From a virus, in the IMG/VR virus record IMGVR_UViG_3300032174_000004, positions 1 to 64,000 of that record: a stretch of DNA of 64,000 nucleotides; one strand, given 5' to 3'. The position numbers and the translations under genes were made by a program. This document shows, piece after piece, positions 31,212 through 48,602 of this stretch. The notes below the pieces were generated by a model, which saw only the letters and a program-made list of their open reading frames with translations, did no database searches and was not told the DNA's origin. The stretch's first letter is position 1; each line of letters begins with the position of its first letter.

Positions 31212-34200
31212 TTAAGCAACATTTTCCTTGATTGTTTGGGCAAAGTAGTCGCGAGCCTGTCGGTCCGGCTCAAGAGGCAAAGAAGCAACGAGATCTGCCG
31301 TAGCAGGATAGCCTGCTTGGCGCATGGAGATAGATGTCTTGCGTCGGGCGGCCGCCGCTTTCGCTTTGTCCTGCCCCACGGTCGCCTTGGTCTGGTTCAT
31401 GCGCTTGACCGACTCGACATACTCCTTGGTGAGCTCGGCTGCAGTCGCTTTGTCACCCGACATCAGCGCTTTCTTGATCTTGTATTTCAGCTCACCAGTA
31501 TATTTCTGGTCCTGCTCGAGACGATCGCGACGCTCAAGCTGCTCAGGCGAGGTGATATAGCCAGGCGCCGGTGTCACCCCAATCATGGGCAACGCCTTCT
31601 TTACTGACGCCCCAAACCCAGAAGGCTGCTCTGTCGCCTGCATCTGTTGGCGTCCCTGCAACGAGAAAGGCGTCATCTCATGCGCGGCAAACTGCGCCTG
31701 TTGCAGTTTCTGGTGCCAATAGCTGGCCTCAGGGTCGCTGATCGGGTTGCCGAAGAAGTCCTGGTTCGAGTACAGGTTGCCGATCAGACTGAAAATCGGG
31801 TTCAGCTTGTTGACGATGGTCTGTCCAGGCCGCTGCGAGTACTCGTAGACATCCTTCACGTAGGATGGTAGCGAGACGCGCTCCGGCGTCCCGTAGTTCG
31901 TCGTGCCACCCGTGCGGGGGAAGAAGTAATCCTTCAGCTCCTGCGGTCCTTGGCCAGTTGCCATGTACTGGTAGATGGCCGAGTACAACGCCGTCGTGCC
32001 AGCCATCGCCAGCACGTAAGGAATCCGGTGCCCCAAGTCATCAGCGCTCACCTTGCCCGTGCGAATAGCCTTGTCGACGGCTTTCACCATGTCGATGGGC
32101 GCGCCGCCGATTTCGCGAACGGTACCCACGTTCCAGCCCACCGCGCGTATCCCTAGATGCAGTGAGTCTTTCATGGTCCGGTTCCAGAAGAGGTTGTCGT
32201 ACACCATCTCGCCCAACCGGTTGTCGACCGAGTCCCAGATTCGCTGCATCGCGGCCGCGCGATCGTTGGGGTCCTGAGTCGGGTTGCGCCGCAAGTGATC
32301 GGCCGCCAAGTCCGAGAACACCCCCAGCTTCTGCATGGGGACGAGGTGCTCCATGATCCAGGAGGTGGAGGCGCGCACTACCCGCATTGCCATCTCCACT
32401 GGGACTTCCATTTTTGGGGTCGTCTTCCAGATCTCCTGCGTCTCCTTCCAGAGCTTGTTGGCGTACTCGATCGGGAAATGCCCTAGAGCTCGACCCAGGT
32501 TCTGGATCTTGTCCTGCGGCGCGGTGAGCGCTTGTCGAATGTCGTTAGCAAGCGAGCGAACACCAACGCCACGGAAAGGACTCACGCCCTCTGCCGCCTG
32601 GTAGTAGCGATCCATGTGCGCGCGACCGCCGGCCATGGTGAGCATCTGGACCATCCGCTGCATGTCTGGGGTCGCGCCAGCCGGATTCGAGTAGGCCTGC
32701 AGCAGCTTATAGCCGCGGCGGACGTTCATGACCGCCCCGACTGGCGTAGCTCCCTCTACGAAGGAAGCCGCAGCCTTCCCGACCTCCCCATGGGCTAGCC
32801 GCTCGAGCGCCTGAGCGTTCTTCGAGATCATCGCATCGAGTGTCGTGAACCCTAGGTGGAACGCTGAGAAGCCAAGCTGCATGGCATTTAGCGCGTTGGC
32901 GCCACGGCGGAATATCTGGGCAGGCGCGAAGTCTCGGAGGGCCGAGGCCGACACGTGGTTATTAATCACTCGTGCCGCATCGATCGGCATGATGTACTGA
33001 CCGCGCTCGATGAAGCCGTTCTCCTCCTCCGACCAAGAACGGACTTTCGCAATGTTGTCGTTGATCGGACCCCAGCCATCTGGCATCGAGTGGCCAGCGG
33101 GTAGGAACTTGGCGAGGCCATCTTCCTTGAAGCGCCGCATGAGCGTGACGCCCGTCACGAAGCGCTGCATCTCGCGCGTCTTGAGCAGCGTCATGATGAG
33201 TGGGTTCGTGGTGAGCGGCGTGAGACCCGCGTCCATACCTTCCTTGATACTAGGGATAGTTCGCATCTTCAGGAAGGATGCCGGCCCACGCAGAGGACGC
33301 CGGCCCATGATGGAGGCCACCATACGTTGCGCCTCATCCGGGAAGCGCCAGTAGTGCGGGAAATAGTTCTCGATGAAGTTGTCGAGGTAGCCCTCGCCGA
33401 GGCCTTGTACCTTCCCGCGCCAGTCATCTAGCAGCTTGCGCATCGCATCCGCGACGGGCTGCATCTCAGGATTCGGCTGCTCTACCCCACGCTCGATCGC
33501 ATCCATCATGGCAAGTTGCTCAGGGATAGGAGTCTTATCGATCTCCCGTGAGAAGCGCTCTAGCGCTTCCTGCGTTTGTACCGTCTCGTGAGCAAGCTTG
33601 CCGAGAGCCTCTCGAGCGATTTGCGCGACTTGGCGTGACTCAGCGCTCATGCCTACTGGGTTGATCAGCTTGCGGAGATCGCGAACGCCTTTCGCTTCCG
33701 CAACGGCAGAGACTGCTCGACGAACGATCGGATATGCTCCGGGCTCGCGCTGCTCTTCAAGAGGCAATTCCTGCTGGCGCCGAGAGAACATCGGAAAGCC
33801 CTGGCTGAGGGCTGCTTGGCGAAGAGGTTCGGTAATGTCAAAGCCGTGTACGGGGATCGCTGTATCTGAAGGAGCGTTCGGCGATAGCGCCGCTTCGGTG
33901 GGATCAGGCCCTATTACCTCAGTACGCCCTACCTTCGCGCCGTACTTCTTGATGAGCTTGTCGGTCTCGCGGGGGAGGATAGAGTCATAAAACCCTTTCA
34001 TGCCAGACCCCCCGACATGGAGGTCCAAGCCAGATAAACTGCGTTCTGGAAACTTCTCGTTAGGATAGATCGAGGTGATCTGACCCTCACCTCTCTCCAT
34101 CTTTTCCGCGAGTTCCTGCCCTACATACTCTCCAACCTGCTCCTTAGTCATTCCCTTATTTTGCAGATCTGGTGCAGCAGACTGCCCATTTCTCTCCGCA

Positions 34201-37200
34201 TATAACCAGTACTTGCCGTCTTCATCGCGCGAATAGACGATGCGATCGATATGCTGCGCGAGGTTATATCGGTCTGCCTGCTGATCTCCGGTAGTCCAGG
34301 AGATGCGATCGAATCCGTTCTCCGCCGCGTGCCTGATCATTCGCTTCATGGCCAACATCGGCCAGGAGGTTTTGAAGGGAGCGGACGGTACCCCGACTTC
34401 ACCCTCAGTAAGCGCCTTTATTTCGTTTTGTGCATCCACCCATTCTTGCTTTTGCTCAGCAGTGACTGACTTGCCATGAAAGTCCCAGAGAAGTGCCTGT
34501 ATTTCGTCACGCCGCTTTACCAGCTCCGCAAGGCGCGCTTCCTTCTCTGGCCGGTATCCCTGCTTGCGGCCTACCTGATGCCAGTCCGATTGAATCTCTT
34601 CGAGGTGTAGAACCTTCTTCCCTTCAGAGTCGGTGCGCTCGTTGAAGCGGACGTGGGCGAGGATGTTGGGCTCGCGCCAGTGCCCAGATTTATAGATAGG
34701 CTGGAGTGCACCATGATGCTGGGTGGGCAATTGCAGTAAAAGCTCGCGGTAGTTCCCCCCGCCAGGTAGCGTGTACTCACCGTACTGCGTTCCGTCATTC
34801 TCAAGGTGAGTCCAGCCTTCCGGGCCTGCTGCACGCCGAGTGCGCTCATCTCCCACGCGAGTAGAGATGTTGTTTAGCTCCTCGACATCGGAGCGAAGAG
34901 AATCTGGTAGCCGCTCCATATCGTCCGTGTTATAGCTATAGTGACGCGATTCAATGCCGTCACCGTCCTCTCCACGTACTCCGATGTGATCTAAATATCC
35001 CTCATCAGTGAATGTGATTTGATGGCCTTGCGCTCGGAGCTTTTCAGCTAGTTGTATCTGGGCGCGCTCGTCTTCTGTTTGTTCAGCAGAATCGATGCGT
35101 TCCCCATGAACCGTTTCCTGCAGCTCAAGCCGATTCGCGCGCACGTAGTCAGCGAGTTCTTCCTTGGTGACTGGACCTTTATGGTCCTTTAGCCAGTGGT
35201 CTAAATTTAGCCACTCAAGTTCCTCAGGCTTGACTCCAGACTGCTTCTTGAGAGTTGCTAGCCATTGTTCAGCGGAGGCCTTCCCCTGCTTGCTCTCACT
35301 GATGGCGCGCTCAACGGGCGAGTAGAACATCGGCGCGCGCTGGGAGCGTGGGGGTTCGCCAGGAAGCGTTCCAGCGGTCCCACCCTCAAGCGCAGTGCGC
35401 GCCTGCTGGATCAGTCCCGCGATCGCCTTGTCATCGTAGAAGGGTTTCCCCCTCATCTTAGAGAAGAATGCCTTCACGGCGCGGACAGCGCGCTTCCAGT
35501 ACGGAAGGACTGGCTTGTCGATGGGCTGGCCGGAGAGATGCTGACCGGCCGCATAGGCAATCACTTCCTCTGCAGCAGCGCGGCGTTGGTCAACGTCACT
35601 GACATCGAGCCCGTTCCTCTGGGCCGCCGCCTGCACCCGCTCCGGCATATCTCGGTTGATCCCATCCATGACTGCGTTATATGTTGGCCTATCCATCGCC
35701 AGTCGGAGACCGTGATGACCCACCGCCTCGTGCCAGAGATTCTCGCGCACCTCACGCTCACTCCCGTTGTTGCCGGCAATGAGATGGATGCGATCTGCGC
35801 CCGGATCGTAGACGGCGCCTGTCAGGCGTTCCGCGCCCTGCTGTTCAACGAGGCTCTTGATAGATTGTGGAAGAGTGGACACATCTTGGTGCACCTCGAC
35901 GTGCGGAAAACCGGCGACGAGGTTAGCTTCTCGTATCGTTTGGTGAACGATGCGCTGGACGTGAGCCAGCGGGAGGCCTGACGTCGTCCCCTCGGTCCTA
36001 CGGTACTTCGATTCCTTTCCCCATTTGTCAACGAGGAGCACCGACTTGGGCTGGCCAGGTCCCTCGCTAAGACGTACTGCCTGTTTACCGGCTGCTCGAG
36101 CTTCATCGACCGCTTTGTCTACTGCGTCTGGATTTCCGGCATATACATCTTGGGCCGGCTCGTAGATATCGTCGGAAGCTAGCTTGAGCCGCTTTATCTC
36201 ATGGTCTTGACCAGACTGAGTGAATTGGCGCGCGAACTCCTTCTCTGGTGTATAGAAGCCGCCACCAGCGTTGCGAACATTTTCCCCGCGGTAAAGCGTC
36301 TCAGTCTTACGGTGGGAAAACTTCGGCTCTACTTCCTTTTCGGAGCCGGCGGGAGGGTGACCTTGGTTATCTTGCCGCCCTGCTTCGCGAGCTCGGATAG
36401 CCGATCCGGGAGGCGCCTGGCCGCGCGCAGCGCGCTCTCCTTGGGCTTCTCTTCTCGCTTTGTGGGCACTGAGGGCGGCATCGGCTTCTTGAGCGTTCTT
36501 ACCTACGCCGTAGGATACTCCGAATCCCTTCAGTTCAACGACTCGGCCGTCAGGCATCGTCACTTCGATCTGTGCGCCCTTCAGGTGCTCCTGAATGCGG
36601 CTCATCAGCTCGTGCGCTTCCGTCTCAGTATGGGTCTGCGCGGCGAACTCATCCCCTGAGATGTGGTAGGCCTCGTCGGTATGGCGCGCGAGCGCGGTCC
36701 CAATGGCTTTCAGCAGCATGTCCCCCGACTCATGGCCCATCTCATCGTTGACCCATTTCAGCGAGTCAACGTCGATCGCCACCTGGTGGGGAAGCTTCTC
36801 GGCTTCCTGATAGGCCCGACGGTTTGGGATGCCAGTGAGCTCGTGGGTCAGCAGCGCAGCGCGCAATTGATCTGGGGTCATCTCTTTGACCCGACCTCGA
36901 AGCGCCGTATCTACGCGCCGGTCAACGCGTTCCGCTCCAGGAACTGCGCGGTTTGTGTTTCCTGAATCCAGCCACTCCTTGAACTTCTCAGTAGGCATCT
37001 CGGCGATTGAGCCCAAGCCCCGCCACCCCTTCGGGTAATTTGCGCGATAGACCGCCTCGGCTTCCTGTTGAGAGTCAGCACCCAGAACTGATTTGTGCTC
37101 GTCCAGCTTGCCCGTAGCTGGATCGATTTGATTGATGACGAAGACTTTACCGGTATCTGGCTTGCCAGTGAGAAAAGCATCCACTGCATCCCCATCCTTG

Positions 37201-39533
37201 CCCTCAGTCCCCTTCACATAGCCATACGTGTGGGACATTTCCCTGGACCATGGCTTGCCATCCGGGCCAATACCTGAGCGCGTAGAGCCTTTGGGGTTCT
37301 CGATCGCGACCTTCATTCCCGCGAAATCGACAACGCCCTTTTTGTACGTCCCGGCTTGCTTCTGCCCTTCGGTGGGCGCCGTATTGGTCTGCGCCTCAGC
37401 GCGCGCTAGGGCTTCTTGGAAGCTTTCTTCTTGGCCTTGCGGTGCGCCTTGAGCCTTTGCAGGTTCTTCAGTACCGCCGCCTGGAGTTTGCTGTTTTTCG
37501 GATCCACGGGCGATTATGGACTCAAGCTCACCGCGAACGCGAGCGATCGTCTCTGGGTGATCGTCATTCCAGCTATCGAGCGTCTGGACGGTTGCCGCGC
37601 GATCGTGATCGCTTGCCCGGCTCGCCAGCAAGGTGAGATCTAGCGCCCCTTCTGGCTGCTTATCCAGATCCGGTACCGCTTCCCGCAGCTCCGCATGCCT
37701 TTGGTTCATGGCGGTGCGCTCGTCGTGCACCTGCGTCATGAAGTCGATCATCGACTGCTCACGGGCCTTGAGCGGCTGCCCAGCGAGCGCCTTGTCGACC
37801 GCATCGTGCACCTGGCTCTCCGTAAGCCCCTTCGGGCGATCTGGCCACCAGTCGGCGCGTGGGAGCCACTTGGTGCGGCCTACCACCTCATCCGTGGTGG
37901 CGTCGCGGATGACCCGGCCCCCTTCCTCCGCCCATCCAGTCTCATCCTTCATGGCGGTTAGGCCATCTCGGAGGTCCTGGTCGGTAGCGAGACGGTGCTC
38001 TGGAGTGCCGTCTTGAGGGCCCTGTGGATGCACCACGCCGTCACTGACTTCCTGGTTCAGCTGTGTTAAGCGACGCCGGCCAGCGGGGAGGAAGATCGGC
38101 TCATTCAAGTCATTGCGCTTGATCAGCCCCAGCTTCTCCAGCATGTCGGCTTGCGGAGGGGTAATCGACTTATCCTTCAAGGCTAGTAGCGCGGCATGCT
38201 CGGCAGAACTTGGTTGCGACCCTTGGGAGCTGCTGGTAGCAGCTTCGGGCGCTTCGGAAGATTTCTCGGCGCTTTCAGTAGGTTGAGTCTCAGTCGAGGT
38301 GGGGTGGACAGTGGTAGCACCTTCACCTGCCTCAGTGTGTGTCTGTAGCACAGTTGGCTTCGGCGTCCGCGACGTTGCCGCATGGAAGGCTCCCATTGGG
38401 GCTCCTACCACGCTTCCGACCAGCCCCGACCACGCGACCTGCTTGAGCGCCTCATCGAGCGGCAAATGCTGGTTGAGCACCCCTGCATCGATCCCCTGCT
38501 GGAGAGCATTCACCACACTTTGTGTAACGCCCTGAGCCGCCGCAGTGCCGGCGACTTTGCCCACTCCAGTCTGTGCGAGCTTGTCACCCACCACACCGCC
38601 GATGATTTTGTTGGCAAGAGGCGTGTTCTCAACGATCTTGAGGACTGGAACCTCCGGTACGCTCGAGGCGAGGGTAGACAGCACTGCGTAGGTGCTCGCT
38701 GTATCGTGATCTAGTCCCTTATTACGTGCCGCCGCGTACTCATTCGGCGCGATATCTGCGGCCATGACGGCGGCACCACCGACGCCCCCTGTTGCTACTG
38801 TCGCACCGACCCCAGCCAAGATGTCTGGCGACATGGTTGCGGCATCAAATACGAGCGCCTTGAGCGAATGGTCATCCATGTGCGGCGCGTAAATCTCCTG
38901 GACCTGCTGCGCCGTGAGTCGCCGCTTCGTGCCAGCCTCCATCTGCGCGCTGCCAGTCTGTAGCCGATCGCGCTGCTTCGACTTGAATTGCTCAAGCTGC
39001 TCCTGGGACTGATTCACGTATGTTGGCCAGTCGCGAGTAAACGTGTCCGGCCGAATCCCAAGGTGCTCAGCGGCGCTTTGGACCTCCGGCATATCAGTCA
39101 GCGCCGCCCCTTGCTTCTGAGCGTCTCGGACCGCTTGTGGGAGCACGGTGGCCTGCCAGAACTTCTTGCGGGCGTCATCGTAGGCGCTGTGGCCTAGGTA
39201 CTCCTGAGCCCCCGCGATCTTCGTCTCAATGCCAGCACCGATGGCAGTCGGGATCCCGCGGGCCACATCGCTCCAGGAAGCCGGTGGATATTCCCGCTTG
39301 GCACTGACCGTGACCTCAGGCATCTGCGCCTGGTCGGTGACGTCCTGCATGCGGGAAGCCGTCGTGTCCGCCGCAGACGGGCTATCCATCTGGTCCAATG
39401 GATTCCCAGCTGGATGGTCGTCGAGGTCGTCTAGCGGATTCCGTTGAGGTGTAGGCGCGCTCGCCAGCGCCGACATAGGAAGTGCAGGGGCGCTTGCTGC
39501 GTCATCAAGGGCGTCAAGTGGATTCGCTGCCAT
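31212..39533 (-). CDS. giant polyvalent internal virion protein with GGDEF-like domain
   Basis: A 2773-residue protein, by far the largest gene. Order of parts, rough residues: 1-420 Ala/Ser-rich with hydrophobic helices; 730-860 an inorganic-pyrophosphatase-like domain of phage polyvalent proteins (AIENPKGSTRSGIGPDGKPW, GYVKGTEGKDGDAVDAF); 880-1045 a GGDEF-like domain (LTGIPNRRAY, AIDVDSLKWVND, ISGDEF); 1075-1175 ADP-ribosyltransferase-like segment (YRGENVRNAGGGFYTP); 1190-1370 a zincin-like region with HEAVGHHG near 1266; 1440-1870 a large polyvalent-associated region; 1900-2773 helical, with a possible membrane span near 2516. Such proteins are packaged and injected with phage DNA. Domain names are by motif; the last 870 residues are unassigned. 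Confidence 0.85.
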   Translation of the reverse strand: MAANPLDALDDAASAPALPMSALASAPTPQRNPLDDLDDHPAGNPLDQMDSPSAADTTASRMQDVTDQAQMPEVTVSAKREYPPASWSDVARGIPTAIGAGIETKIAGAQEYLGHSAYDDARKKFWQATVLPQAVRDAQKQGAALTDMPEVQSAAEHLGIRPDTFTRDWPTYVNQSQEQLEQFKSKQRDRLQTGSAQMEAGTKRRLTAQQVQEIYAPHMDDHSLKALVFDAATMSPDILAGVGATVATGGVGGAAVMAADIAPNEYAAARNKGLDHDTASTYAVLSTLASSVPEVPVLKIVENTPLANKIIGGVVGDKLAQTGVGKVAGTAAAQGVTQSVVNALQQGIDAGVLNQHLPLDEALKQVAWSGLVGSVVGAPMGAFHAATSRTPKPTVLQTHTEAGEGATTVHPTSTETQPTESAEKSSEAPEAATSSSQGSQPSSAEHAALLALKDKSITPPQADMLEKLGLIKRNDLNEPIFLPAGRRRLTQLNQEVSDGVVHPQGPQDGTPEHRLATDQDLRDGLTAMKDETGWAEEGGRVIRDATTDEVVGRTKWLPRADWWPDRPKGLTESQVHDAVDKALAGQPLKAREQSMIDFMTQVHDERTAMNQRHAELREAVPDLDKQPEGALDLTLLASRASDHDRAATVQTLDSWNDDHPETIARVRGELESIIARGSEKQQTPGGGTEEPAKAQGAPQGQEESFQEALARAEAQTNTAPTEGQKQAGTYKKGVVDFAGMKVAIENPKGSTRSGIGPDGKPWSREMSHTYGYVKGTEGKDGDAVDAFLTGKPDTGKVFVINQIDPATGKLDEHKSVLGADSQQEAEAVYRANYPKGWRGLGSIAEMPTEKFKEWLDSGNTNRAVPGAERVDRRVDTALRGRVKEMTPDQLRAALLTHELTGIPNRRAYQEAEKLPHQVAIDVDSLKWVNDEMGHESGDMLLKAIGTALARHTDEAYHISGDEFAAQTHTETEAHELMSRIQEHLKGAQIEVTMPDGRVVELKGFGVSYGVGKNAQEADAALSAHKARREAQGERAARGQAPPGSAIRAREAGRQDNQGHPPAGSEKEVEPKFSHRKTETLYRGENVRNAGGGFYTPEKEFARQFTQSGQDHEIKRLKLASDDIYEPAQDVYAGNPDAVDKAVDEARAAGKQAVRLSEGPGQPKSVLLVDKWGKESKYRRTEGTTSGLPLAHVQRIVHQTIREANLVAGFPHVEVHQDVSTLPQSIKSLVEQQGAERLTGAVYDPGADRIHLIAGNNGSEREVRENLWHEAVGHHGLRLAMDRPTYNAVMDGINRDMPERVQAAAQRNGLDVSDVDQRRAAAEEVIAYAAGQHLSGQPIDKPVLPYWKRAVRAVKAFFSKMRGKPFYDDKAIAGLIQQARTALEGGTAGTLPGEPPRSQRAPMFYSPVERAISESKQGKASAEQWLATLKKQSGVKPEELEWLNLDHWLKDHKGPVTKEELADYVRANRLELQETVHGERIDSAEQTEDERAQIQLAEKLRAQGHQITFTDEGYLDHIGVRGEDGDGIESRHYSYNTDDMERLPDSLRSDVEELNNISTRVGDERTRRAAGPEGWTHLENDGTQYGEYTLPGGGNYRELLLQLPTQHHGALQPIYKSGHWREPNILAHVRFNERTDSEGKKVLHLEEIQSDWHQVGRKQGYRPEKEARLAELVKRRDEIQALLWDFHGKSVTAEQKQEWVDAQNEIKALTEGEVGVPSAPFKTSWPMLAMKRMIRHAAENGFDRISWTTGDQQADRYNLAQHIDRIVYSRDEDGKYWLYAERNGQSAAPDLQNKGMTKEQVGEYVGQELAEKMERGEGQITSIYPNEKFPERSLSGLDLHVGGSGMKGFYDSILPRETDKLIKKYGAKVGRTEVIGPDPTEAALSPNAPSDTAIPVHGFDITEPLRQAALSQGFPMFSRRQQELPLEEQREPGAYPIVRRAVSAVAEAKGVRDLRKLINPVGMSAESRQVAQIAREALGKLAHETVQTQEALERFSREIDKTPIPEQLAMMDAIERGVEQPNPEMQPVADAMRKLLDDWRGKVQGLGEGYLDNFIENYFPHYWRFPDEAQRMVASIMGRRPLRGPASFLKMRTIPSIKEGMDAGLTPLTTNPLIMTLLKTREMQRFVTGVTLMRRFKEDGLAKFLPAGHSMPDGWGPINDNIAKVRSWSEEENGFIERGQYIMPIDAARVINNHVSASALRDFAPAQIFRRGANALNAMQLGFSAFHLGFTTLDAMISKNAQALERLAHGEVGKAAASFVEGATPVGAVMNVRRGYKLLQAYSNPAGATPDMQRMVQMLTMAGGRAHMDRYYQAAEGVSPFRGVGVRSLANDIRQALTAPQDKIQNLGRALGHFPIEYANKLWKETQEIWKTTPKMEVPVEMAMRVVRASTSWIMEHLVPMQKLGVFSDLAADHLRRNPTQDPNDRAAAMQRIWDSVDNRLGEMVYDNLFWNRTMKDSLHLGIRAVGWNVGTVREIGGAPIDMVKAVDKAIRTGKVSADDLGHRIPYVLAMAGTTALYSAIYQYMATGQGPQELKDYFFPRTGGTTNYGTPERVSLPSYVKDVYEYSQRPGQTIVNKLNPIFSLIGNLYSNQDFFGNPISDPEASYWHQKLQQAQFAAHEMTPFSLQGRQQMQATEQPSGFGASVKKALPMIGVTPAPGYITSPEQLERRDRLEQDQKYTGELKYKIKKALMSGDKATAAELTKEYVESVKRMNQTKATVGQDKAKAAAARRKTSISMRQAGYPATADLVASLPLEPDRQARDYFAQTIKENVA

Positions 39534-39536
39534 ACA

Positions 39537-40988
39537 TCAGCGGGCCAACGCGCTCTGCGGTTGAGCGAACTGCTGATATTCGCGAGGCAGATAGCCAAAC
39601 TTAGCTAGGAAGTAGGGCGCGATCTGCTGCGGGTTCTTCTGGAGCGCGTCCAGCTGAGCGGCATTGGGCCCCCGCGTCATTCCAGATGGCGGCTGCGTCG
39701 GGACAGCCCCTGTTCCACGTGGAACAGCTGAGGCTGTGGGACGGGCGCCAGGGTTTGGAGGGGTCTCAAGCGCCGAGCGTGGCGCAGGCGGTACGGGAGT
39801 GGCTGGGCCCCCACGCTGCATGCGGTTGTACTCGCTCTCTGCGTAGTCGTCATGGTGCTTCTGCACTTCCTCCGGTGTCATCCCCATCCACGAGGTGGGA
39901 TTCGCCCGGATGAAAGAATCCGCCGACTTCTCCGCCATTTGACGACGTTGGGCGTCAGAAAGCTGGTACGTGCGGGGATTAGCGGCGTACTTGAGCGCTT
40001 CTTGCTGGACATTCTGCAGATCTTGGCCAGTTAGCGGCTGGCCATTCGCGTCCTTGCCATTGGTGGACATGTACAGGTTGTAATTCGCCTGTGCGGCCGT
40101 CTGTTTGCCACCTCCTGAGCCGCCGCCTGGAGCGGCCTTGATGGGGGTCCCGTCCTTACCAAGTTGCACGACCGACCCGCTACCTGTCACCCCGTAGATC
40201 GATCCGTCATCCCCCGTGACTGTGCGCTTGACCTGGCCAGCGAGCATGGAGGCGCGCTTATTCGCCCCCGCCTGCTGGGTATCCACCCGCTGCTGAGCGG
40301 CCGTATTGCGGCTCTCTGTACGGGCACCAGCTCCTTGCTGCTGCAACTCCGTACGCCCCAGCATGGCGTCCTGCTGCTGGAAGGCGCGGATATCGCGACC
40401 CTCCTCGAGCGCTGAGCGTGAGGCCAGCTGCGCCTTCTCCTTCCCCTGCGCAATCGTGAGCTGGTTGCGCATCTGGGCGTAGCGCCCGGCCTGCGCCTGC
40501 TTCTGCGCCATGAGGTCCTTGGCGCTCTGCAGTGTCTCCGTGCCCGACTCTCCTATGGCGGCGCCCACTGAGGGGGTCACCTGACCATACTGGGAGCGCG
40601 AGTGCGACATCATGCGCAGCCCGAACTCCATGAGCAGCATCCCTTTCTCTTTCTGAGAAAGGTTGGTCTGCGGCTGGCCGCCCAGCTGATCCATCATCTT
40701 TTGGTAGCTCGAGTCGATGCTCTCGTTGGCGGACTTCAAGTGATCGCGCAGTTCCTGCAGCGTTTCCTTCTGCGTTTGATCGTGCTGCTGCTGCCATAGC
40801 TGTCGGAAACTCAGGCCATTGCCTGCCTGCTGATCCCCCTGTGCACCCATGAGCGCGCTGGGAGGTGGCGGGGGAGCTTGCCCTTGGTAGAGATCCGGCC
40901 CCAAGTCGCTCGCCTGGCTGTTATCGGTTGGATCCGGCTGCGGGGCTCCAGCCAGTTGCGACTGCATCTGATCGGCAGGCGTACTCAT
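39537..40988 (-). CDS. internal virion-type helical protein
   Basis: A 483-residue protein, Gln/Ala-rich and mostly helical (FRQLWQQQHDQTQKETLQEL), with a Gly-rich turn near 290 and Pro-rich stretch near 400. Composition and place between the giant protein and other Gln-rich genes suggest an internal or ejection protein. No enzyme motif is seen. Confidence 0.7.
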   Translation of the reverse strand: MSTPADQMQSQLAGAPQPDPTDNSQASDLGPDLYQGQAPPPPPSALMGAQGDQQAGNGLSFRQLWQQQHDQTQKETLQELRDHLKSANESIDSSYQKMMDQLGGQPQTNLSQKEKGMLLMEFGLRMMSHSRSQYGQVTPSVGAAIGESGTETLQSAKDLMAQKQAQAGRYAQMRNQLTIAQGKEKAQLASRSALEEGRDIRAFQQQDAMLGRTELQQQGAGARTESRNTAAQQRVDTQQAGANKRASMLAGQVKRTVTGDDGSIYGVTGSGSVVQLGKDGTPIKAAPGGGSGGGKQTAAQANYNLYMSTNGKDANGQPLTGQDLQNVQQEALKYAANPRTYQLSDAQRRQMAEKSADSFIRANPTSWMGMTPEEVQKHHDDYAESEYNRMQRGGPATPVPPAPRSALETPPNPGARPTASAVPRGTGAVPTQPPSGMTRGPNAAQLDALQKNPQQIAPYFLAKFGYLPREYQQFAQPQSALAR

Positions 40989-41299
40989 TTGGGCTCCTGG
41001 TACTTCATGCCACCCTTCGCCTTACCGCCGGTGAAGTAGACCCCCGCCACCTGTGCAGCTGCCGAGAGCAGATGCTTCACTGCGAAATGGGGAATCTTCT
41101 GGTGAGCGGCCGGAGCAGGCCCCTGCAAGGCGCTACGCGGCGGACCAGCGGCGCCTGCCGGCGCTGCGGGGCCTGGCGGTCGCCCCTGATTCGGGTCCCC
41201 AGCCAGCATCGAGTGCAGCCGCGCCCCGTAGTTCTGCATGTACTGATCCAGCGGGCTAGGCGCCGGCTGCTGTCCAGGAACGGTTGGAGTAGGCGCCAT
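40985..41299 (-). CDS. small Pro-rich virion-region protein
   Basis: A 104-residue protein: Pro/Ala-rich (about residues 1-65) followed by a helix (KHLLSAAAQVAGVYFTG) and basic end. ATGA overlap with the next gene. Not recognised; expressed with internal virion genes. Confidence 0.65.
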   Translation of the reverse strand: MAPTPTVPGQQPAPSPLDQYMQNYGARLHSMLAGDPNQGRPPGPAAPAGAAGPPRSALQGPAPAAHQKIPHFAVKHLLSAAAQVAGVYFTGGKAKGGMKYQEPK

Positions 41300-41300
41300 G

Positions 41301-42266
41301 TCAGCTCCCTAGATCGCCCGATGAGAAGTCGATGGGCGCCGGCTGCGTTTGGTCGATGACATCTTGCGCAGCGACCTGTGATTGAGCGTTGGCGAGCGCT
41401 GTATCAGGCCCTGAAGAACTCCCACCGCCGCCGCCCATCTGCTGCCAAAGTCCAGCACCTGCCGCTGCTCCCCCAAGAGCCGCGCTTCCCATGTTGCTCG
41501 GCGGCCCATACAGGCTCGTGTTCGTCTGAACTCCCTTCGAAGCGGCAATCGCCTGTATGAGCGGCTGAAGCTGCGTCGTCGACCAGTTCTGGTTGGTCAG
41601 GAAGGTGTTCAGGTTGAAGTTCAACTGCTGCTGATTCAGCGACTGCGCAAGGCCCCCCGTGGCCATCAACTGCTGGATCTGCTCACCGTTGAGCCGACTG
41701 ACATCCCCGCCGACCTGAGCAAGGGCCTCCCCTGCTGCGATCTTGGTCTTGTTGTCGTTGAAAAAGGCGTTCTGCGCGTTCGTGTAAGCCGCCGAGTAGG
41801 CATTGCCTATATCCGATGCGAGCGCCTGGGAATGCGAGGTCTCAAGCGATTGCTCCTCGAGCGCCGAGCGATCGCCACCGAAAGCCCCTGCCTTCGAGTT
41901 CTCCAGCGCCGACTTCTGCGTCGCGTAGTTGATGTTCTCCTGGTTGAGAACCGGAGTGAGGGTCGCCTGTACATACGGATCCATGTACGACTGCAGGTTC
42001 TGCGAGTTGTACTGCTTGATGCCCGCGATATCGTTGGCCCCCTGAGTCAGCAGGCTTGAGGCTTGCGTATTCAGCGCGCTCTCAGGAGAAGCCTGCGCAG
42101 TGGCCTGCTGCTGGCCCTGCGACTCCGGCGCCACCACCGCCCCGCCATAAGGCGTGTACGGCGTGTTGGCGATCGTCTCGGCTTTCGCTAGCGCGTCATT
42201 GCTCGCAGCCTGCGTTTCAGGTGACTCGGAAGTCGTCGAGTGGCCCGCAGCATTCTTGCTGCTCAT
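41301..42266 (-). CDS. Ala/Gln-rich internal virion-type protein
   Basis: A 321-residue protein; helical, with many Asn/Gln/Ser (NAYSAAYTNAQNAFFNDN). Gly-rich end. The frame is open upstream for about 20 more codons (PWGAVAGAVISAGG) without a start codon, so the true N-terminus may be longer or a start was lost. Role inferred from the neighbouring genes: internal core or ejection protein. Confidence 0.7.
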   Translation of the reverse strand: MSSKNAAGHSTTSESPETQAASNDALAKAETIANTPYTPYGGAVVAPESQGQQQATAQASPESALNTQASSLLTQGANDIAGIKQYNSQNLQSYMDPYVQATLTPVLNQENINYATQKSALENSKAGAFGGDRSALEEQSLETSHSQALASDIGNAYSAAYTNAQNAFFNDNKTKIAAGEALAQVGGDVSRLNGEQIQQLMATGGLAQSLNQQQLNFNLNTFLTNQNWSTTQLQPLIQAIAASKGVQTNTSLYGPPSNMGSAALGGAAAGAGLWQQMGGGGGSSSGPDTALANAQSQVAAQDVIDQTQPAPIDFSSGDLGS

Positions 42267-42323
42267 GTACTGGCCACCGGCGGAGATTACGGCCCCCGCA
42301 ACCGCGCCCCATGGCGTTAAGTC

Positions 42324-42358
42324 CCTGATTCTATGGTGGAATATACCATCGAATCAGG
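42324..42358. terminator. perfect 8+5-bp hairpin in a late-gene gap
   Basis: CCTGATTC, a T, ATGGT, loop GGAATAT, ACCAT, a C, GAATCAGG. Overlaps the stop of the 2OG-oxygenase gene and precedes the internal virion gene. No T-run on either strand, so it may be an RNase III or stability hairpin, or mark an insertion boundary. Confidence 0.5.
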
Positions 42359-43004
42359 CCCCCATTTGTCTTGGAGTCGCATCGCGTTCCCCATCGCCAC
42401 ACCACAGTGGCTTCAGTCTCTGGTCGCGTTTCACACAGACAATGCAGGTGATTCTCTCGACCGTTGACCCGTTGGAGACCCAATGTGTTTCATTATTATT
42501 GAAAGAGTACACAGTGCCAGGAGCACACTCGAAAGCGCCGTCATCGTAGCAAAACGTCTGCCCTGGTGCGCTCTTGAGCTGTACGGCAATTTTCTCATAC
42601 GTGGTTGCGTGCCAACCGTGATCGATATGCGGTTTTACTTCACCGCCCGGCGGGATGCGCGTGATCAATACACCGCCTAGCCGCTCCGCCTCAAAGTGCC
42701 GCATGAGATCGAAGATAAGCGTGCGCAGGTTGGGAAGGAGGTCAATCGCCGAGTACCACACGCTCTCATGAGGCTCGCCAACGAAATGAACGACAACCTC
42801 ATTGGGATGAGGATATTCCTTGCGAAGCGCGTGGAGTTCGTCAATCGCGCGGTAACGAATCCAGATATCCGATACACCGTTGTGCGCTGGCGCGTAGCCT
42901 TCAGTCCGTAGGGTATAGCGATTCCACAGCTCTGGGTGCGCATCGAGCTCCGCGACGACCGATGATACGTCCAGCCCATACACAAGAGGGCGCAGGTACT
43001 TCAC
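42354..43004 (-). CDS. 2-oxoglutarate/Fe(II) dioxygenase of the Asp/Asn-hydroxylase type
   Basis: A 216-residue protein. Iron ligands His126 and Asp128 (KPHIDHGW), His174 (ETHWVSNGS) and the 2-oxoglutarate-binding Arg184 (VERITCIV) are in place, with the preceding RIPPGGEV strand typical of aspartyl/asparaginyl hydroxylase-like enzymes. It would hydroxylate a protein or small molecule; substrate unknown. Forms a tight ATGA-linked trio with the sulfotransferase and GNAT genes. Confidence 0.85.
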   Translation of the reverse strand: MKYLRPLVYGLDVSSVVAELDAHPELWNRYTLRTEGYAPAHNGVSDIWIRYRAIDELHALRKEYPHPNEVVVHFVGEPHESVWYSAIDLLPNLRTLIFDLMRHFEAERLGGVLITRIPPGGEVKPHIDHGWHATTYEKIAVQLKSAPGQTFCYDDGAFECAPGTVYSFNNNETHWVSNGSTVERITCIVCVKRDQRLKPLWCGDGERDATPRQMGA

Positions 43005-43516
43005 CGTACGTTCCCCATCATTCGCTGGATCAGGCGTCGGCAGACAGCGGGATCTGGGTCGAGCTTCTCAAAGTCGGCTTGCACATTGAGTTGCCGCAAT
43101 AGGGCGTGCCGAGGAGCATCGAAGGGAATATGCCCTTCAAAGAGATGATCGTGAATGATTTCGGGATGGTGGAAGATTTCGCGCCAGTCCACATGGAAGC
43201 CATCAATTCTGGCGAGGTCGTCTTCCCAGTTGTGATCAAGTGGCGGGAGCCCCGCTCGACGCAAGGAAAGGTCTATCTCGCGCATGTCCCGATGCAAGAT
43301 CACTTTGCGAGCGGGATGCCGCTTGAGCCAGTCCGGGAAGAGAGCGATGCCCGTGTCTGCAAGCCCTAGGATGCGATCGCAAGGTATCGTGTCCAGATCC
43401 TCAAGGTCATGCGTGATACACAGCTCGTGCAGACACAGCGAGAGCTCAGTGGTGCACCAGTTACTACACCATGCGGTTCCTGACCGAGGCGCTCCTATGA
43501 TCATGAACGTAATCAC
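43001..43516 (-). CDS. sulfotransferase-like protein
   Basis: A 171-residue protein. GAPRSGTAWCSNW (8-20) is the PAPS-binding P-loop of sulfotransferases; KVILHRDMREIDLSLRRAG resembles the 3'-phosphate-binding region (R-D-P-R-x-x-x-x-S), here with M for P. Shorter than most sulfotransferases (250-300), so the acceptor-binding part is reduced. Could sulfate a glycan, protein or small molecule, or have lost activity. Confidence 0.75.
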   Translation of the reverse strand: MITFMIIGAPRSGTAWCSNWCTTELSLCLHELCITHDLEDLDTIPCDRILGLADTGIALFPDWLKRHPARKVILHRDMREIDLSLRRAGLPPLDHNWEDDLARIDGFHVDWREIFHHPEIIHDHLFEGHIPFDAPRHALLRQLNVQADFEKLDPDPAVCRRLIQRMMGNVR

Positions 43517-44016
43517 GCGCTGGCCGCCTTCGTGAGGGTCGGTAGCGGCATGCGCAGGAAGGTATGGCGAGAGGGCAGGTAGCTTGAGCGCTTGGCGATG
43601 ACCTCATTCAACTCTGCCGGCGTCAGCATCTGCGATCCCAGGAAGCCGACTAGCTTGTTGCTGTCGAGGAATCGCTCCAGTGCGTCGAGTAGCTGCTCAG
43701 GGACTCGCGTCGTACGATAGGCCGGCGTCACTGCCAACCAAGTCTCAGCCAGCACTACAGTCTCGCACCATGGCGTGCGAATCGGCGCCACGCCTATGCT
43801 GCCGAGAAGCCGTCCTTGGAGATCCGCGACGATCACGAAGGCGTGTCGCAGCGTGGTAGTCACGTACTCCAGGAGCTTCTGCTCATCGAGTTTGCCGATT
43901 TCCCTAGCCGGTGTTTCAGAGTAGCCGGCCTTGATCAGGCGGACCAAATTCACGCTGTCCATCGCCGTTGCTGGCCTGATGACTACCGCATCCTTCTTCT
44001 TCTCTCGCATCTTCAT
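43513..44016 (-). CDS. GNAT-fold acetyltransferase
   Basis: A 167-residue protein. VVIRPATAMDSVNLVRLI at the start, a GRLLGSIGVAPI strand, and AETWLAVTPAYRTTRVPEQL, which is the acetyl-CoA-binding region (here R-T-T-R in place of R-G-x-G). Acetylates an amine; substrate unknown. First of the three-gene modification cassette inside the virion gene block. Confidence 0.75.
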   Translation of the reverse strand: MKMREKKKDAVVIRPATAMDSVNLVRLIKAGYSETPAREIGKLDEQKLLEYVTTTLRHAFVIVADLQGRLLGSIGVAPIRTPWCETVVLAETWLAVTPAYRTTRVPEQLLDALERFLDSNKLVGFLGSQMLTPAELNEVIAKRSSYLPSRHTFLRMPLPTLTKAASA

Positions 44017-44054: not shown

Positions 44055-44426
44055 TTACGCGAAGCCAATCTCCGCGTCAATGTTCAGAGTGATCTTGTTC
44101 GCGACATCAGCGAGACCTGTGAGGAAGTCGGCAGCATCGAAGCGCGTCTTGCCGTACCAGTCCGCGTGTGAGTTCGCGCCGATGGTCTCACCTGCGAAGG
44201 CAAACTCAGTCCCTACCGCGCTCGCGCCTGTCGCGCCCTTGAAGAGCTTCAGGGTGTGCGGGGAGCTGTCATTGTTCACGGCACGGATGTGCAGGATGGT
44301 GAGATAGGGCTGCGTCGCCGTAAAGCCAACCGGTCCTGCCAGCGACGTGATATTGCAGTTGAGCAAGTTCGCGGCCGATGCCGAAAGCGCGATCGCTTGG
44401 ATGTTCAGTAGTTTCTGCTGGGCCAT
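44055..44426 (-). CDS. virion-region beta-rich protein
   Basis: A 123-residue protein (MAQQKLLNIQAIALSASAAN), with strand-rich LTILHIRAVNNDSSPHTL and a GATGASAVGTEFAF segment. Resembles small tail or decoration proteins; adjacent to fibre genes. No enzyme motif. Confidence 0.65.
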   Translation of the reverse strand: MAQQKLLNIQAIALSASAANLLNCNITSLAGPVGFTATQPYLTILHIRAVNNDSSPHTLKLFKGATGASAVGTEFAFAGETIGANSHADWYGKTRFDAADFLTGLADVANKITLNIDAEIGFA

Positions 44427-44454: not shown

Positions 44455-45360
44455 CTAAGCAGTGCGGCGGAACCAATCCATTTGGTGCGCCGATACGATA
44501 TTAACGCCGCCGTTCCCTATAATCGCTATGTGTGTAACGCTTCCGACCCAAGCTGACAATGCCACTGTAGCCAGTACAGTGTACTGCAACCCACCGGCGC
44601 TATACGAAAATATTAAGTTAGTCCCGTCATTCTTGACCTTCATATACACTGGAACTATACCGCTCCATGTCTGTGTAGCAGTAGTCGCGTTGAAGGAGTA
44701 AGTATTATTACTAGCGTTACGGGTCTCGCTTTGGAGTTGTAAGTTAGTTCCATTCCATCCCCAGTAATATCCCTTGTACGTCGAACTGTTGTAAATCGCA
44801 AAGCCCGCTGCGGCGAAGAATTTCCATGTAAATTCCCAAGGGGTTGCGGGTACGGCTTGTGAAAAGAATATGCCAGAGTTGCTGGACCCGTTCACCGATA
44901 TGTTAGCTAAACCACCGAGTTGTACCAAAGAGGTTACGGGAGTAGCGCCGCCATTATTTATGAGCACCCATGCATTCGCTCCAGCAAACCTGGCTCCCGT
45001 TGTATCGATAGAGGATCCAAATTCAAACTCATCATCCCAAACTGTTGGACTACTTGGATGTGTGTCAGGAGTTATATTTACCCCAGTAGCCCCGCCAGTA
45101 CCCGCCGGCCCTACCGCCCCAGGTGGCCCAGGCTCTCCGTCCTGCCCATCCTCAGCGAGAAAGAAAATTGCAGGCCCTGCTGGACCGGCGCTGCCCGTGG
45201 CTCCAGCTACTCCTGGTTGTCCGGGGATTGCATGCCATCCATCCTCCCCATCCTCGGCGGCCAGATAGATAGCCGGCCCTTGCGTTCCTGGCGTCCCAAC
45301 AGCACCAGCGGGCCCTACTGGACCATCTTTCGGCAGGCCTTGAGGGTCGAAGAGCTTCAT
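44455..45360 (-). CDS. collagen-like tail-fibre protein
   Basis: A 301-residue protein. N-terminal MKLFDPQGLPKDG, then Gly-X-Y repeats (GPVGPAGAVGTPGTQGPA) with two copies of a GPAI-x-LAAEDGEDG element, then a beta-rich C-terminal domain of about 200 residues with lectin/LamG-like look (GFAIYNSSTYKGYYWGW). Collagen-like repeats trimerise fibres and the C-terminal domain likely binds receptor. Next to other fibre genes. Confidence 0.75.
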   Translation of the reverse strand: MKLFDPQGLPKDGPVGPAGAVGTPGTQGPAIYLAAEDGEDGWHAIPGQPGVAGATGSAGPAGPAIFFLAEDGQDGEPGPPGAVGPAGTGGATGVNITPDTHPSSPTVWDDEFEFGSSIDTTGARFAGANAWVLINNGGATPVTSLVQLGGLANISVNGSSNSGIFFSQAVPATPWEFTWKFFAAAGFAIYNSSTYKGYYWGWNGTNLQLQSETRNASNNTYSFNATTATQTWSGIVPVYMKVKNDGTNLIFSYSAGGLQYTVLATVALSAWVGSVTHIAIIGNGGVNIVSAHQMDWFRRTA

Positions 45361-46069: not shown

Positions 46070-46698
46070 ACGATCCCCGCGTAGGCTAGCTGCTTGGGAT
46101 AGCCAGATGTACCAATGATGGCCGCGAGGTCACTGGCCGCGAGTTCCTCCACGTTCCCGATGCCATCGCCGCTCTTGCGGCCGAGCACTACCGCATCCGT
46201 ACTCGTTTGCTGCATCTTCGCGTAGGTCACCACATTGGTGTTGATCTCAAGCTCAATGCTTCCGTGTGTAGTGATCGGAGAGCCCGTGACCTTCAGATCT
46301 GCGCTGTTGATGCCGATAGAGGTGACCGTTCCGCTGCCACTACCGCCGCCAGATGCCGAGATGGTGATCGAATTTGAATCCACGGAAAAATCGATGTTGC
46401 TTCCAGCGATAAGGGTCTTGAAAGCGAGCAACGCGCCTTCGATATCCTTGAATACCCCCGCGCCATCGCCGACGTTCTCAGCCCCAGTGATGGTTCCACC
46501 GCCGCCTGTCTCCCATGAGGCATCATAGTCATTGGTGCTGTTCTTGAGCAGCATTTGGCCTGTGTTGCCGGAACGTAGCATCTGCTGGAGGGCTTGCGCT
46601 TCTGCGGCTAGCGTGCGCACGAACTGCATGAGGCGATCGAGCTTGGGGTCGCCAAACTGGATATCAGGAGCCGCAAGGGAGTGTCGCTTGATAGTCAT
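46066..46698 (-). CDS. tail-fibre-like virion protein
   Basis: A 210-residue protein. The ATG at 46698 overlaps the upstream stop as TGATG. N-terminal helix, then Gly/Ser/Thr-rich beta repeats (GAENVGDGAGVFKDIEGALL; GSGTVTSIGINSADLKVTG) characteristic of fibre shafts. Likely a fibre or baseplate component. Confidence 0.7.
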   Translation of the reverse strand: MTIKRHSLAAPDIQFGDPKLDRLMQFVRTLAAEAQALQQMLRSGNTGQMLLKNSTNDYDASWETGGGGTITGAENVGDGAGVFKDIEGALLAFKTLIAGSNIDFSVDSNSITISASGGGSGSGTVTSIGINSADLKVTGSPITTHGSIELEINTNVVTYAKMQQTSTDAVVLGRKSGDGIGNVEELAASDLAAIIGTSGYPKQLAYAGIV

Positions 46699-48602
46699 CA
46701 GCGTCGTCCGACAGGGCTCGCGATCGCGCGCCAGAAGTCCATCCGCCAATAATCGCCCATCGTCACCGACTCCATGTAAAGCGCGACGCGGCGCTGGCAG
46801 AACTGTGGATCAATCTGATCGGTCGTCGGGGTCACAATGAGACGATCACCATAGACCGTCGCATCTCCTGTGAACTCACGCCCGAAGACCTGGAGCGTCA
46901 CGGAGCCCGACATCTCTTTGAAGTCAGGGATGAGCGAGTGCAGCAGCATAAGCATGGAGCCTGAGGCCATCGACCACAGCGTCTGGTTCTGTGGCACATC
47001 GTGGCGAGAGGTCATGGCGAACTCCCCCTCCCACGTCGTCAGGAAGTTGAATAGCGCCTCCTCGCTGCTGACATCGGTTCCCGTCTCCTCAAGATACGTC
47101 CCCGTATCGTTAAAGCCGATCGGCACCCCGAAGAAGACATTCTTGTCGAGGCCGCTCTCCCGGGCGATCGAGGACTTGTACCAGATGCCCAGCTGCCAGT
47201 TGTAGATCGCCGTGCTGTCATTCTCGTCCGAACTGTTCGACGGGAAGCTCCAGTGGATCTCAAAGAACTGCAGCCGTACCCGACAGGTGACCTTGCTCTG
47301 CATCTTGCGGTTGATGCCGGAGGTGGGGTCGCTCTTCGTACCGAACACGTAGTCGGCGATATCGCAAGGCAAGTCGTTGACCGTGCCGTTGTAGAACGCG
47401 AAGCCATTCTCGGTCATGTAGTACACGGTCCCGAAGACATCGACGCCGGCGCCCGGTGAGATGATCTTCACCGACTGGGCGAGTGGAGTGATCTGGTAAA
47501 CGTCGGTGCCCCCGACTAGAGCGACCGTGTAAAGGCACTCATCGGAAAAGATGACGATGGAGGTACGCGTCTTGACTCCAGTGATGATGCGCGAGCCAGT
47601 GTCGAGCCGCTTGCTTCCCGCGTCATTGAGCGTGGTCTCGACCCAGTTGTCGAAGTTGTCACCCTCGCACCAGCGCACGAACATCTTGTCCTGCTGCCCA
47701 GTGACAGTAGTCGCATCCGTGCTCAGCAGGTTGGTACCCAGCGCTAGGACATGCCGATCGTCCGGTCCCACCAGCATGCGCTCAATGTTCGCGGGCGCCG
47801 TCGGCCGAAGGAGTGCGCGGGAATCCGGGCCTGTTTGCCGCTGCCACCAGTAGAGCGCCTCACCATTGGGCGCGGCGAGGAGATCCTCCCCCCAATTGTC
47901 CAGCGACCAGATGCGCGCAAAGCCGCCGAAGGTCGACGCCGATCGTGCTGTGCCATAGGCCTCAAGCCCATAGCCACCCGTGCCGTAGCCAGAAAGCGTG
48001 CCGTCTGAAGTGAGGCCGCTTGAGATATCGTAGTTCGCTACCACGGCGCCACCCGACCCCGCATTGGTGACGCTCACGGGTACGCCGTACACGATGGTAT
48101 ACGTGTTCAGGTCGATGATGCTGGCGATGACCCACTCGCCGTTGACGTTCACATTCCCGAAGGGGGTCATGCCGGAATAGGTGACGAAGTCGCCAGCCTG
48201 CGCGTTGTGCGAAGGGTCGGTGACCGTGATGACCAGCGACCCTGCCTGCGTCGCGAAGCCGTTGATGATCGTGTCGGTTTGCCGGATCGGCGTGATGTCG
48301 TACAGGCGCGCGTTGTTGATCAGATAGAGCTTGTACTCGGTGCCGAAAGCGATCCAGTTCTGCCCATCGAGCGAGTCCCACTGATGGCAGCTGCGCGCAT
48401 GGCCTTGGTACCAGATGCGGTTGCCATTCGTATCGATCAGCAGCTCTTCCTGGAAGCCCCCCATCTTCTGTGGTAAGCCGAGGTACCAACGCACGTTGTC
48501 GCCGTCGATGTACCGGCCGAGTGCTTGCCGCGCAGACCGCTGCATGAAGATGCCGGGCTGCACCTGCATGTCGATCGTGTTGGCTTGGCGAGGACCGGCC
48601 AT
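46698..48602 (-). CDS. tail/stabilisation protein (P22 gp10-like)
   Basis: A 634-residue beta-rich protein. MQRSARQALGRYIDGDNVRW, KMGGFQEELLIDTNGNRIWY and later repeats of Trp-containing strands resemble the phage stabilisation/tail-tube class (gp10 of P22-type podoviruses), which closes the portal and carries the needle. Assigned by similarity of layout; no needle gene is identified. Confidence 0.7.
   Translation of the reverse strand: MAGPRQANTIDMQVQPGIFMQRSARQALGRYIDGDNVRWYLGLPQKMGGFQEELLIDTNGNRIWYQGHARSCHQWDSLDGQNWIAFGTEYKLYLINNARLYDITPIRQTDTIINGFATQAGSLVITVTDPSHNAQAGDFVTYSGMTPFGNVNVNGEWVIASIIDLNTYTIVYGVPVSVTNAGSGGAVVANYDISSGLTSDGTLSGYGTGGYGLEAYGTARSASTFGGFARIWSLDNWGEDLLAAPNGEALYWWQRQTGPDSRALLRPTAPANIERMLVGPDDRHVLALGTNLLSTDATTVTGQQDKMFVRWCEGDNFDNWVETTLNDAGSKRLDTGSRIITGVKTRTSIVIFSDECLYTVALVGGTDVYQITPLAQSVKIISPGAGVDVFGTVYYMTENGFAFYNGTVNDLPCDIADYVFGTKSDPTSGINRKMQSKVTCRVRLQFFEIHWSFPSNSSDENDSTAIYNWQLGIWYKSSIARESGLDKNVFFGVPIGFNDTGTYLEETGTDVSSEEALFNFLTTWEGEFAMTSRHDVPQNQTLWSMASGSMLMLLHSLIPDFKEMSGSVTLQVFGREFTGDATVYGDRLIVTPTTDQIDPQFCQRRVALYMESVTMGDYWRMDFWRAIASPVGRR

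Follow-up and report, generated by a model that had tools for sequence, protein, structure and literature searches.

The three enzyme genes analysed here encode a GNAT-like acetyltransferase, a sulfotransferase-like P-loop protein (ST) and a 2OG/Fe(II) oxygenase (2OG). As our best explanation, which is a tentative one, we propose that they form a late-expressed modular cassette that modifies a virion component, probably the ejection apparatus, in which 2OG would carry out the constant step and ST would sulfate its product. The trio would then be one allele of a cassette that in short-tailed phages has a fixed slot directly ahead of the first DNA-ejection gene. The basis of this proposal is the conserved slot, the gene order, the catalytic residues, the folds and the mutually exclusive partners of 2OG, from which we infer the substrate and the order of the reactions.

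The window, i.e. the whole stretch of DNA that was analysed, comprises positions 1-64,000 of a 68,635-base virus record. The features that are of concern here are the following.

46698-48602, minus strand: conserved tail/virion structural protein (phrog_3287, virion structural protein, E 9e-41)
44455-45360, minus strand: collagen-like fibre protein, upstream of the trio (PF01391, E 4e-6; phrog_5073, tail fibre, E 2e-10)
44055-44426, minus strand: 123-aa protein just upstream of the trio, no Pfam match
43513-44016, minus strand: GNAT-like acetyltransferase, 167 aa, ATG start, first gene of the trio
43001-43516, minus strand: ST, sulfotransferase-like P-loop protein, 171 aa, GTG start
42354-43004, minus strand: 2OG/Fe(II) oxygenase, 216 aa, GTG start
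42305-42362, minus strand: hairpin over the 2OG stop codon and the gap between 2OG and the ejection gene (RNA fold)
41301-42266, minus strand: DNA-ejection protein, directly downstream of 2OG (phrog_4287, E 1.8e-7)
40985-41299, 39537-40988 and 31212-39533, minus strand: further downstream genes in the same direction (ORFs, spacing)

An earlier note on this DNA had described three overlap-coupled enzyme genes between fibre genes and internal virion genes. The three ORFs are indeed there, on the minus strand between the tail/fibre genes and the ejection gene, and only the wording of the junctions has to be corrected: the note gave ATGA overlaps, while both the GNAT/ST and the ST/2OG junction are 4-bp overlaps that read GTGA. 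The arrangement is beyond chance, as the gene order is kept in other contigs.

The surroundings were compared with those in a related contig, L008. The product of 46698-48602, with which the fibre-cassette-ejection stretch starts, has an 86% identical counterpart there, and the ejection protein a 71% identical relative. Small tail proteins are encoded on the minus strand between the 46698-48602 gene and the collagen-like fibre gene, and a relative of that fibre is absent from the corresponding place in L008. The 123-aa protein is probably tail- or fibre-associated, and its relatives lie close to ST or 2OG also in L008, L013, L155, L171, L143 and L082. The genes at 31212-41299 have homologues in identical order in L008 and are presumed by position to be later ejection or internal virion genes. 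Family searches with 39537-40988 gave no clear match, while 31212-39533, downstream of the ejection genes, encodes a protein of 2773 aa that is probably a giant internal virion protein.

Two details of the ejection-gene start should be mentioned. The reading frame continues upstream of the ATG at 42266 (42266-42320, minus strand) for about 18 codons to an ACG codon, and this extension carries the conserved N-terminus of the ejection protein (TPWGAVAGAV...). L008 has GTG where the window has ACG; the ACG is either an unusual start codon or a wrong base in the record. The hairpin at 42305-42362 has a folding energy of -24.1 kcal/mol (z -3.74; 0/200 shuffles equally stable) and lacks a T-run; it is a possible control element, such as an attenuator or a processing site.

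Relatives were collected by alignment scans of 2.9 million viral contigs, from which the best 80 of 352 candidate 2OG relatives and the best 80 of 177 ST relatives were taken. Together with earlier single-protein scans, six phage-record loci and the window, this yielded 176 loci, which reduce to 121 non-redundant groups at 95% identity of 2OG or ST. Within this sample (best 80 of 352 2OG and best 80 of 177 ST relatives), 84 groups have 2OG and 69 have ST. Co-occurrence elsewhere, which the earlier note had suggested looking for, was found: the ST and 2OG pair is present in 32 of the 121 groups (best 80 per scan), and GNAT-ST-2OG occurs in three other non-redundant contigs of the same GNAT subfamily and, with a different protein in the GNAT place, in three more. 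Both orders of ST and 2OG occur, many with 4-bp overlaps. Considering only the ST scan, 19 of its 54 groups (best 80 of 177) have 2OG and 31 have a recognised ejection gene; over all 121 groups (best 80 per scan), ST stands without a recognised slot gene beside it in 18.

2OG is rare in isolated phages, with 3 of 50,697 records, two of which (PfAn1 and DC33) have an adjoining GNAT. In Pseudomonas phage PfAn1 the 2OG-GNAT pair is located before the internal virion genes. Limnohabitans phage DC33 (L002, PQ492659) is filed as Inoviridae, yet it has terminase- and portal-like genes as well as the 2OG-GNAT pair, and its taxonomy line looks wrong. Bacterial genomes contributed 13 loci with relatives, many of them from Burkholderiales; the genomes are those of Variovorax, Cupriavidus, Paraburkholderia, Undibacterium, Ramlibacter, one Rhodanobacteraceae bacterium and proteobacterial MAGs. 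Cultured carriers include PfAn1, DC33 and the loci in Variovorax and Cupriavidus genomes.

We now consider the three proteins. 2OG matches PF05118 with E 6e-05, above the Pfam cut-off, and its predicted model (pLDDT 93.8) has the double-stranded beta-helix of that family together with the HxD...H triad and the C-terminal Arg; it is a predicted 2-oxoglutarate-dependent hydroxylase. The closest solved sequence-profile match is L-proline cis-4-hydroxylase (E 1.3e-6), which is also found by Foldseek (4p7w, E 3.3e-9), and by VIA it is proline 3-hydroxylase 1e5r (Z 15.0, rmsd 3.0, 159 residues aligned), tied with the rows down to Z 14.0. These proline hydroxylases are the best matches in both sequence and fold and have HxD...H...R in common with 2OG; the identity is however only about 14-16%, 2OG is shorter than their 260-290 residues, and it sits in a phage late operon. 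The full HxD...H and Arg set that had been noted earlier is borne out by the relatives, with H126 and D128 each in 65/65 alignment rows, H174 in 64/65 and R184 in 63/65. Eight further positions (W27, R33, H41, D46, R50, W83, T115 and K138) are invariant in 65/65 rows, whatever the partner. This suggests one conserved substrate, and the substrate site thus looks constant across the relatives, as judged from the alignment. AspH proper has a two-His metal site without the Asp. With D128 present in all 65 rows, an assignment of 2OG as AspH proper was rejected, and the label aspartyl/asparaginyl beta-hydroxylase is here the name of a family and not of a function.

ST has no Pfam match of its own. 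It matches phrog_10855 (E 4e-38), and among its relatives 3 of the 7 rows of one alignment (A2) match Sulfotransfer_3, at best with E 7e-4. For the predicted model (pLDDT 93.8), Foldseek ranks sulfotransferases first, with tyrosylprotein sulfotransferase 8w5z (E 7.5e-4) followed by SULT1A3 (E 9e-4), while VIA gives a tie between a sulfotransferase (Z 9.8, 3.6 Å, 148 aligned) and shikimate kinase (Z 9.5, 3.5 Å, 125 aligned). PAPS sulfotransferases are defined by a 5'-PSB and a 3'-PB motif, the latter with an Arg/Ser pair eight residues apart. In ST, a PRSGT loop replaces the Walker GK[ST] loop, with P10 and R11 in 56/56 rows and S12 in 54/56, and R76 (56/56) and S84 (54/56) are eight residues apart; H30 and R136 are likewise kept in 56/56 rows. 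These residues favour a sulfotransferase over a small kinase, and with a 5'-PSB loop and a 3'-PB Arg/Ser pair on a P-loop fold in the model the putative activity is that of a PAPS sulfotransferase, for which the invariant H30 is a possible catalytic base. ST has the fold, the PRSGT loop and the 3'-PB-like pair in common with TPST and SULT; it differs in that its Z score is equal to that for small kinases and in its length, 171 aa against about 270, which agrees with the remark in the earlier note that it has the P-loop but is short.

Homologues of ST are present in 48 isolated-phage records, all at less than 60% identity. The family phrog_10855, labelled 'hydrolase/nucleotide triphosphate hydrolase' in Pseudomonas and Stenotrophomonas siphoviruses, is homologous to ST over the full length (33-43% identity), but lacks linkage to 2OG or an ejection gene in the three records examined. 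In these, the gene is near RusA/endolysin (Baskent_P4_1), adjoins denV and nrdJ (Nipunavirus PaMx25) or is near a helicase (Pamexvirus phiH1). ST as such is therefore not tied to ejection proteins. As a side observation, the homologues L005:7013-7534 and L004:6001-6540, labelled 'nucleotide triphosphate hydrolase' in many Pseudomonas siphoviruses, resemble sulfotransferases, and that annotation could be revised.

The GNAT scores 20.5 bits against PF00583, slightly below the cut-off of 20.7, and matches phrog_1249, 'acetyltransferase', with E 9e-9. Its subfamily alignment (A5) bears a weak resemblance to diamine acetyltransferase 1 (E 0.026). In the analysis as a whole, NCBIfam gave weak names only, all below cut-off. 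No close relative turned up among the viral contigs with the GNAT as a single query, while a scan with a four-row alignment found 4 contigs. The subfamily is thus known from five contigs: the window, L008/L192, L193, L019/L194 and L119/L195. ST comes after the GNAT in 5/5, counting the window, although in L193 the locus ends within ST and only the gene start is seen. 2OG then follows in all four contigs whose DNA continues, again including the window, with a 525-bp stretch without a convincing gene before 2OG in L119. A second family (phrog_610; putative GNAT only) holds the GNAT place in 14 loci, being followed by ST and 2OG in the same order in 3, by a cupin in 3, two of these near-identical, and by no ST, 2OG or cupin in 8. 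Profile comparison of the GNATs with this second family gave no link, the profiles having 2-4 rows.

Wherever an ejection gene is recognised in the 121 groups (best 80 per scan), it is downstream of 2OG or ST, and it is upstream in 0. For the 81 direct cassette-ejection junctions (best 80 per scan), the median gap is 1 bp and 66/81 lie within 90 bp, as measured from the last recognised cassette gene to the ejection gene with starts taken from the longest ORF. In the 66 groups of the 2OG scan (best 80 of 352), an ejection gene is found in at least 52, the upstream head-closure family in at least 52 and both in at least 45; these are lower bounds owing to contig ends and to ejection-like proteins missed by the profile (e.g. 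L123, L133).

The same slot can be recognised in well-known phages. The P22 map reads 10 > 26 > 14 > 7 > 20 > 16 and that of T7 12 > 13 > 14. Most ejection proteins at the sampled loci belong to phrog_598, as does P22 gp7, and their upstream family, phrog_578, bears the name 'head closure Hc3', which is also the annotation of P22 gene 10. The window has instead an ejection protein of phrog_4287 and an upstream gene of phrog_3287, and its slot equals that of P22 and T7 by position and by the PWGA-type N-terminus of the ejection protein. In L016, a T7-gp13 homologue (phrog_308, E 2.5e-22) is followed by 2OG and a cupin; this neighbour is the sole phrog_308 match among the cassette proteins scanned.

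What varies at the slot is the partner of 2OG. Among the 66 groups of the 2OG scan (best 80 of 352), 17 have ST, 27 a cupin, 18 a protein of about 67 aa and 4 none of these. There is no overlap, so that 62/66 have exactly one of three unrelated partners. Independence would give about 19 overlaps and 0 of 200,000 shuffles reach zero, a result that is inflated by near relatives as the shuffles ignore shared ancestry. Allele exchange at one locus would by itself also produce some exclusivity, which counts against our proposal. The 13 bacterial-genome loci have a cupin in 10, the 67-aa protein in 2, none in 1 and ST in 0. There is one case, L146, of ST and cupin together, and it is without 2OG. 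On a 95-row 2OG tree (a quick tree, without bootstrap) the three partner labels need at least 14 changes, and the exclusivity is therefore not one frozen ancestry. The partners are also found both upstream and downstream of 2OG, which a single physical insertion point does not explain. The exchange can be followed in close relatives: L087 reads GNATb > ST > 2OG > ejection, whereas L277, where GNATb shares 78% and the ejection protein 72% identity with L087, reads GNATb > cupin > ejection, and between L055 (cupin) and L061 (67-aa) the ejection protein is 63% and the upstream protein 70% identical.

Some observations on the partner families can be added. The 67-aa family (L042:4407-4610 and 21 relatives, with A[FW]DMYFAS..SM..HPG) has two sequence subtypes and belongs to no Pfam family. 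The small cupins beside 2OG (L092:5541-5873 and 33 relatives) match PHROGs named 'tail fibre adhesin' or 'short tail fibre protein'; this label may derive from fibre proteins that contain a fused cupin, or the slot cupins may be structural. A family of about 155 aa (..W..WDDLIDKD..; L145, L157, L161, L118:6506-6982) comes after ST in phages without 2OG and is perhaps a further alternative partner at the slot.

The mechanism that we propose is as follows. The cassette enzymes would be produced late, alongside the virion genes. 2OG would introduce a hydroxyl at one site of a virion component that is assembled in the cell; the ejection/pilot protein encoded by the adjoining gene and other tail-assembly proteins are the most likely candidates. 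ST would then move sulfate from PAPS onto the new hydroxyl or a nearby Tyr, Ser or Thr, and the GNAT would acetylate an additional site, while in other phages the cupin or the 67-aa protein would replace ST as the second component. Such a modification could aid the folding, loading or insertion of the ejection proteins, or protect them inside the next host. We favour the ejection apparatus as the target since no other neighbour is as constant and since assembly-related genes hold this slot in P22 and T7; on the other hand, the fibre genes of the window adjoin the cassette too, which counts against an ejection target. The collagen-like fibre as the hydroxylation target was rejected, as the fibres between the upstream gene and the cassette vary or are absent in relatives (L008) and the ejection gene is constant. 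The earlier suggestion of successive action of the enzymes on a single target stands in part. It is chemically sensible that a hydroxyl made by 2OG is sulfated by ST, but the partners vary: in many loci a cupin or the 67-aa protein accompanies 2OG in place of ST, there are loci with ST that lack 2OG, and the siphovirus ST lies among DNA-metabolism or lysis genes.

The wider form of this proposal would be an exchangeable post-translational modification system for the DNA-ejection machinery, with a constant hydroxylase, one alternative second component and sometimes an acetyltransferase, in which the virion pilot proteins would receive hydroxyl groups, and in this phage also sulfate and acetyl groups, prior to packaging. 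We consider it possible but rather unlikely in this full form.

An unlikely alternative, though one with some weight, is that the cassette is directed at the host or at metabolites. The substrate would then be a small molecule (e.g. an amino acid) or else a surface glycan or the lipid A of the infected cell, the function superinfection exclusion or receptor masking, and the late operon a matter of timing only. The closest solved folds to 2OG are those of hydroxylases acting on free proline, which counts against the virion reading; the siphovirus ST homologues are away from virion genes; and the 13 relatives in proteobacterial genomes, many of them Burkholderiales, are from genomes of a type in which conversion functions are common. 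Conversion genes are however usually at scattered places, whereas divergent phages retain the cassette slot immediately ahead of the ejection gene, at a distance of about 1 bp (best 80 per scan). The proteins are, by size only, those of soluble domains, and the exclusivity of the partners would be left unexplained. Lipid A hydroxylation as by LpxO, a PF05118 relative with a membrane part, was rejected since a 2OG of 216 aa has no room for that part. DNA modification was also rejected, as the slot is without nucleotide genes, although the Nipunavirus ST homologue lies near nrdJ.

It is quite unlikely that the genes are unlinked cargo at a recombination hot spot between the tail and ejection modules, each with a small separate benefit and with no common target. 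ST and 2OG each also occur alone, their order is variable, the GNAT families differ, and the second family in the GNAT position is without ST/2OG in 11/14 loci. Such cargo would nevertheless not be expected to place ST beside 2OG in 17/66 loci of the 2OG scan (best 80 of 352) when the ST scan yields only 177 relatives in 2.9 million contigs, nor to show GNAT-ST in 5/5 and a strict three-partner exclusivity with partners up- and downstream of 2OG. Very unlikely, finally, is that the proteins are assembly factors, i.e. chaperones for the ejection proteins like P22 gp14 and T7 gp13 with enzyme folds re-used for binding: these two genes do hold the same slot, different folds swap there and the slot cupins match tail fibre adhesin PHROGs, but H126 and D128 are kept in 65/65 rows and R11 and R76 of ST in 56/56, and binding alone needs no such invariance.

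Each of the protein families is already known, and it is the cassette, the slot and the exclusive partners for which we found no description in the open-licence literature. In open-licence PMC articles, neither the trio nor the 2OG-ST pair, the exclusive partners or the slot as an enzyme cassette was found described. An 'aspartyl/asparaginyl beta-hydroxylase' is a core gene of pelagimyophages (PMC7029224), and OM43 phages carry 2OG oxygenase and sulfotransferase genes (PMC10580990). These enzymes are of the same broad families as the cassette but, in the excerpts of the two accounts considered here, are reported as separate auxiliary genes, with no cassette or ejection-gene slot (PMC7029224, PMC10580990). 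What we describe is a phage accessory or assembly gene locus. A system that modifies virions, if shown, would go beyond this, and phage virion proteins that are sulfated, or hydroxylated by a 2OG enzyme, would then be new, as far as the open-licence literature shows.

The closest parallel by position is with P22 gene 14 and T7 gene 13, whose families PF11039 and PF11090 may be akin to acetyltransferases. The window proteins match neither family. An hhalign comparison of the GNATs with T7-gp13 gave no link (shallow profiles of 2-4 rows), nothing usable came from searching PDB sequences with P22 gp14, with the gp13 pair or with the second GNAT-position family, and family searches to deepen the profiles in 5 and 369 genomes found none, the controls being silent too in the case of PF11090. 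In T7, gp14-gp16 build a trans-envelope channel, according to the part of the account considered here (PMC8954989). If the slot modifies or loads ejection proteins, the enzymes would offer a direct chemical handle (+16, +80, +42 Da) on a poorly understood part of phage DNA delivery. P22 gene 14 (PF11039, DUF2824) and T7 gene 13 (PF11090) are little explained, being annotated 'head morphogenesis' and 'probable scaffold protein' and neither of them as an enzyme, and they stand in the same place as the cassette enzymes, after a head-closure/needle or nozzle gene and, like the cassette, directly before a gp7/gp14-type ejection gene.
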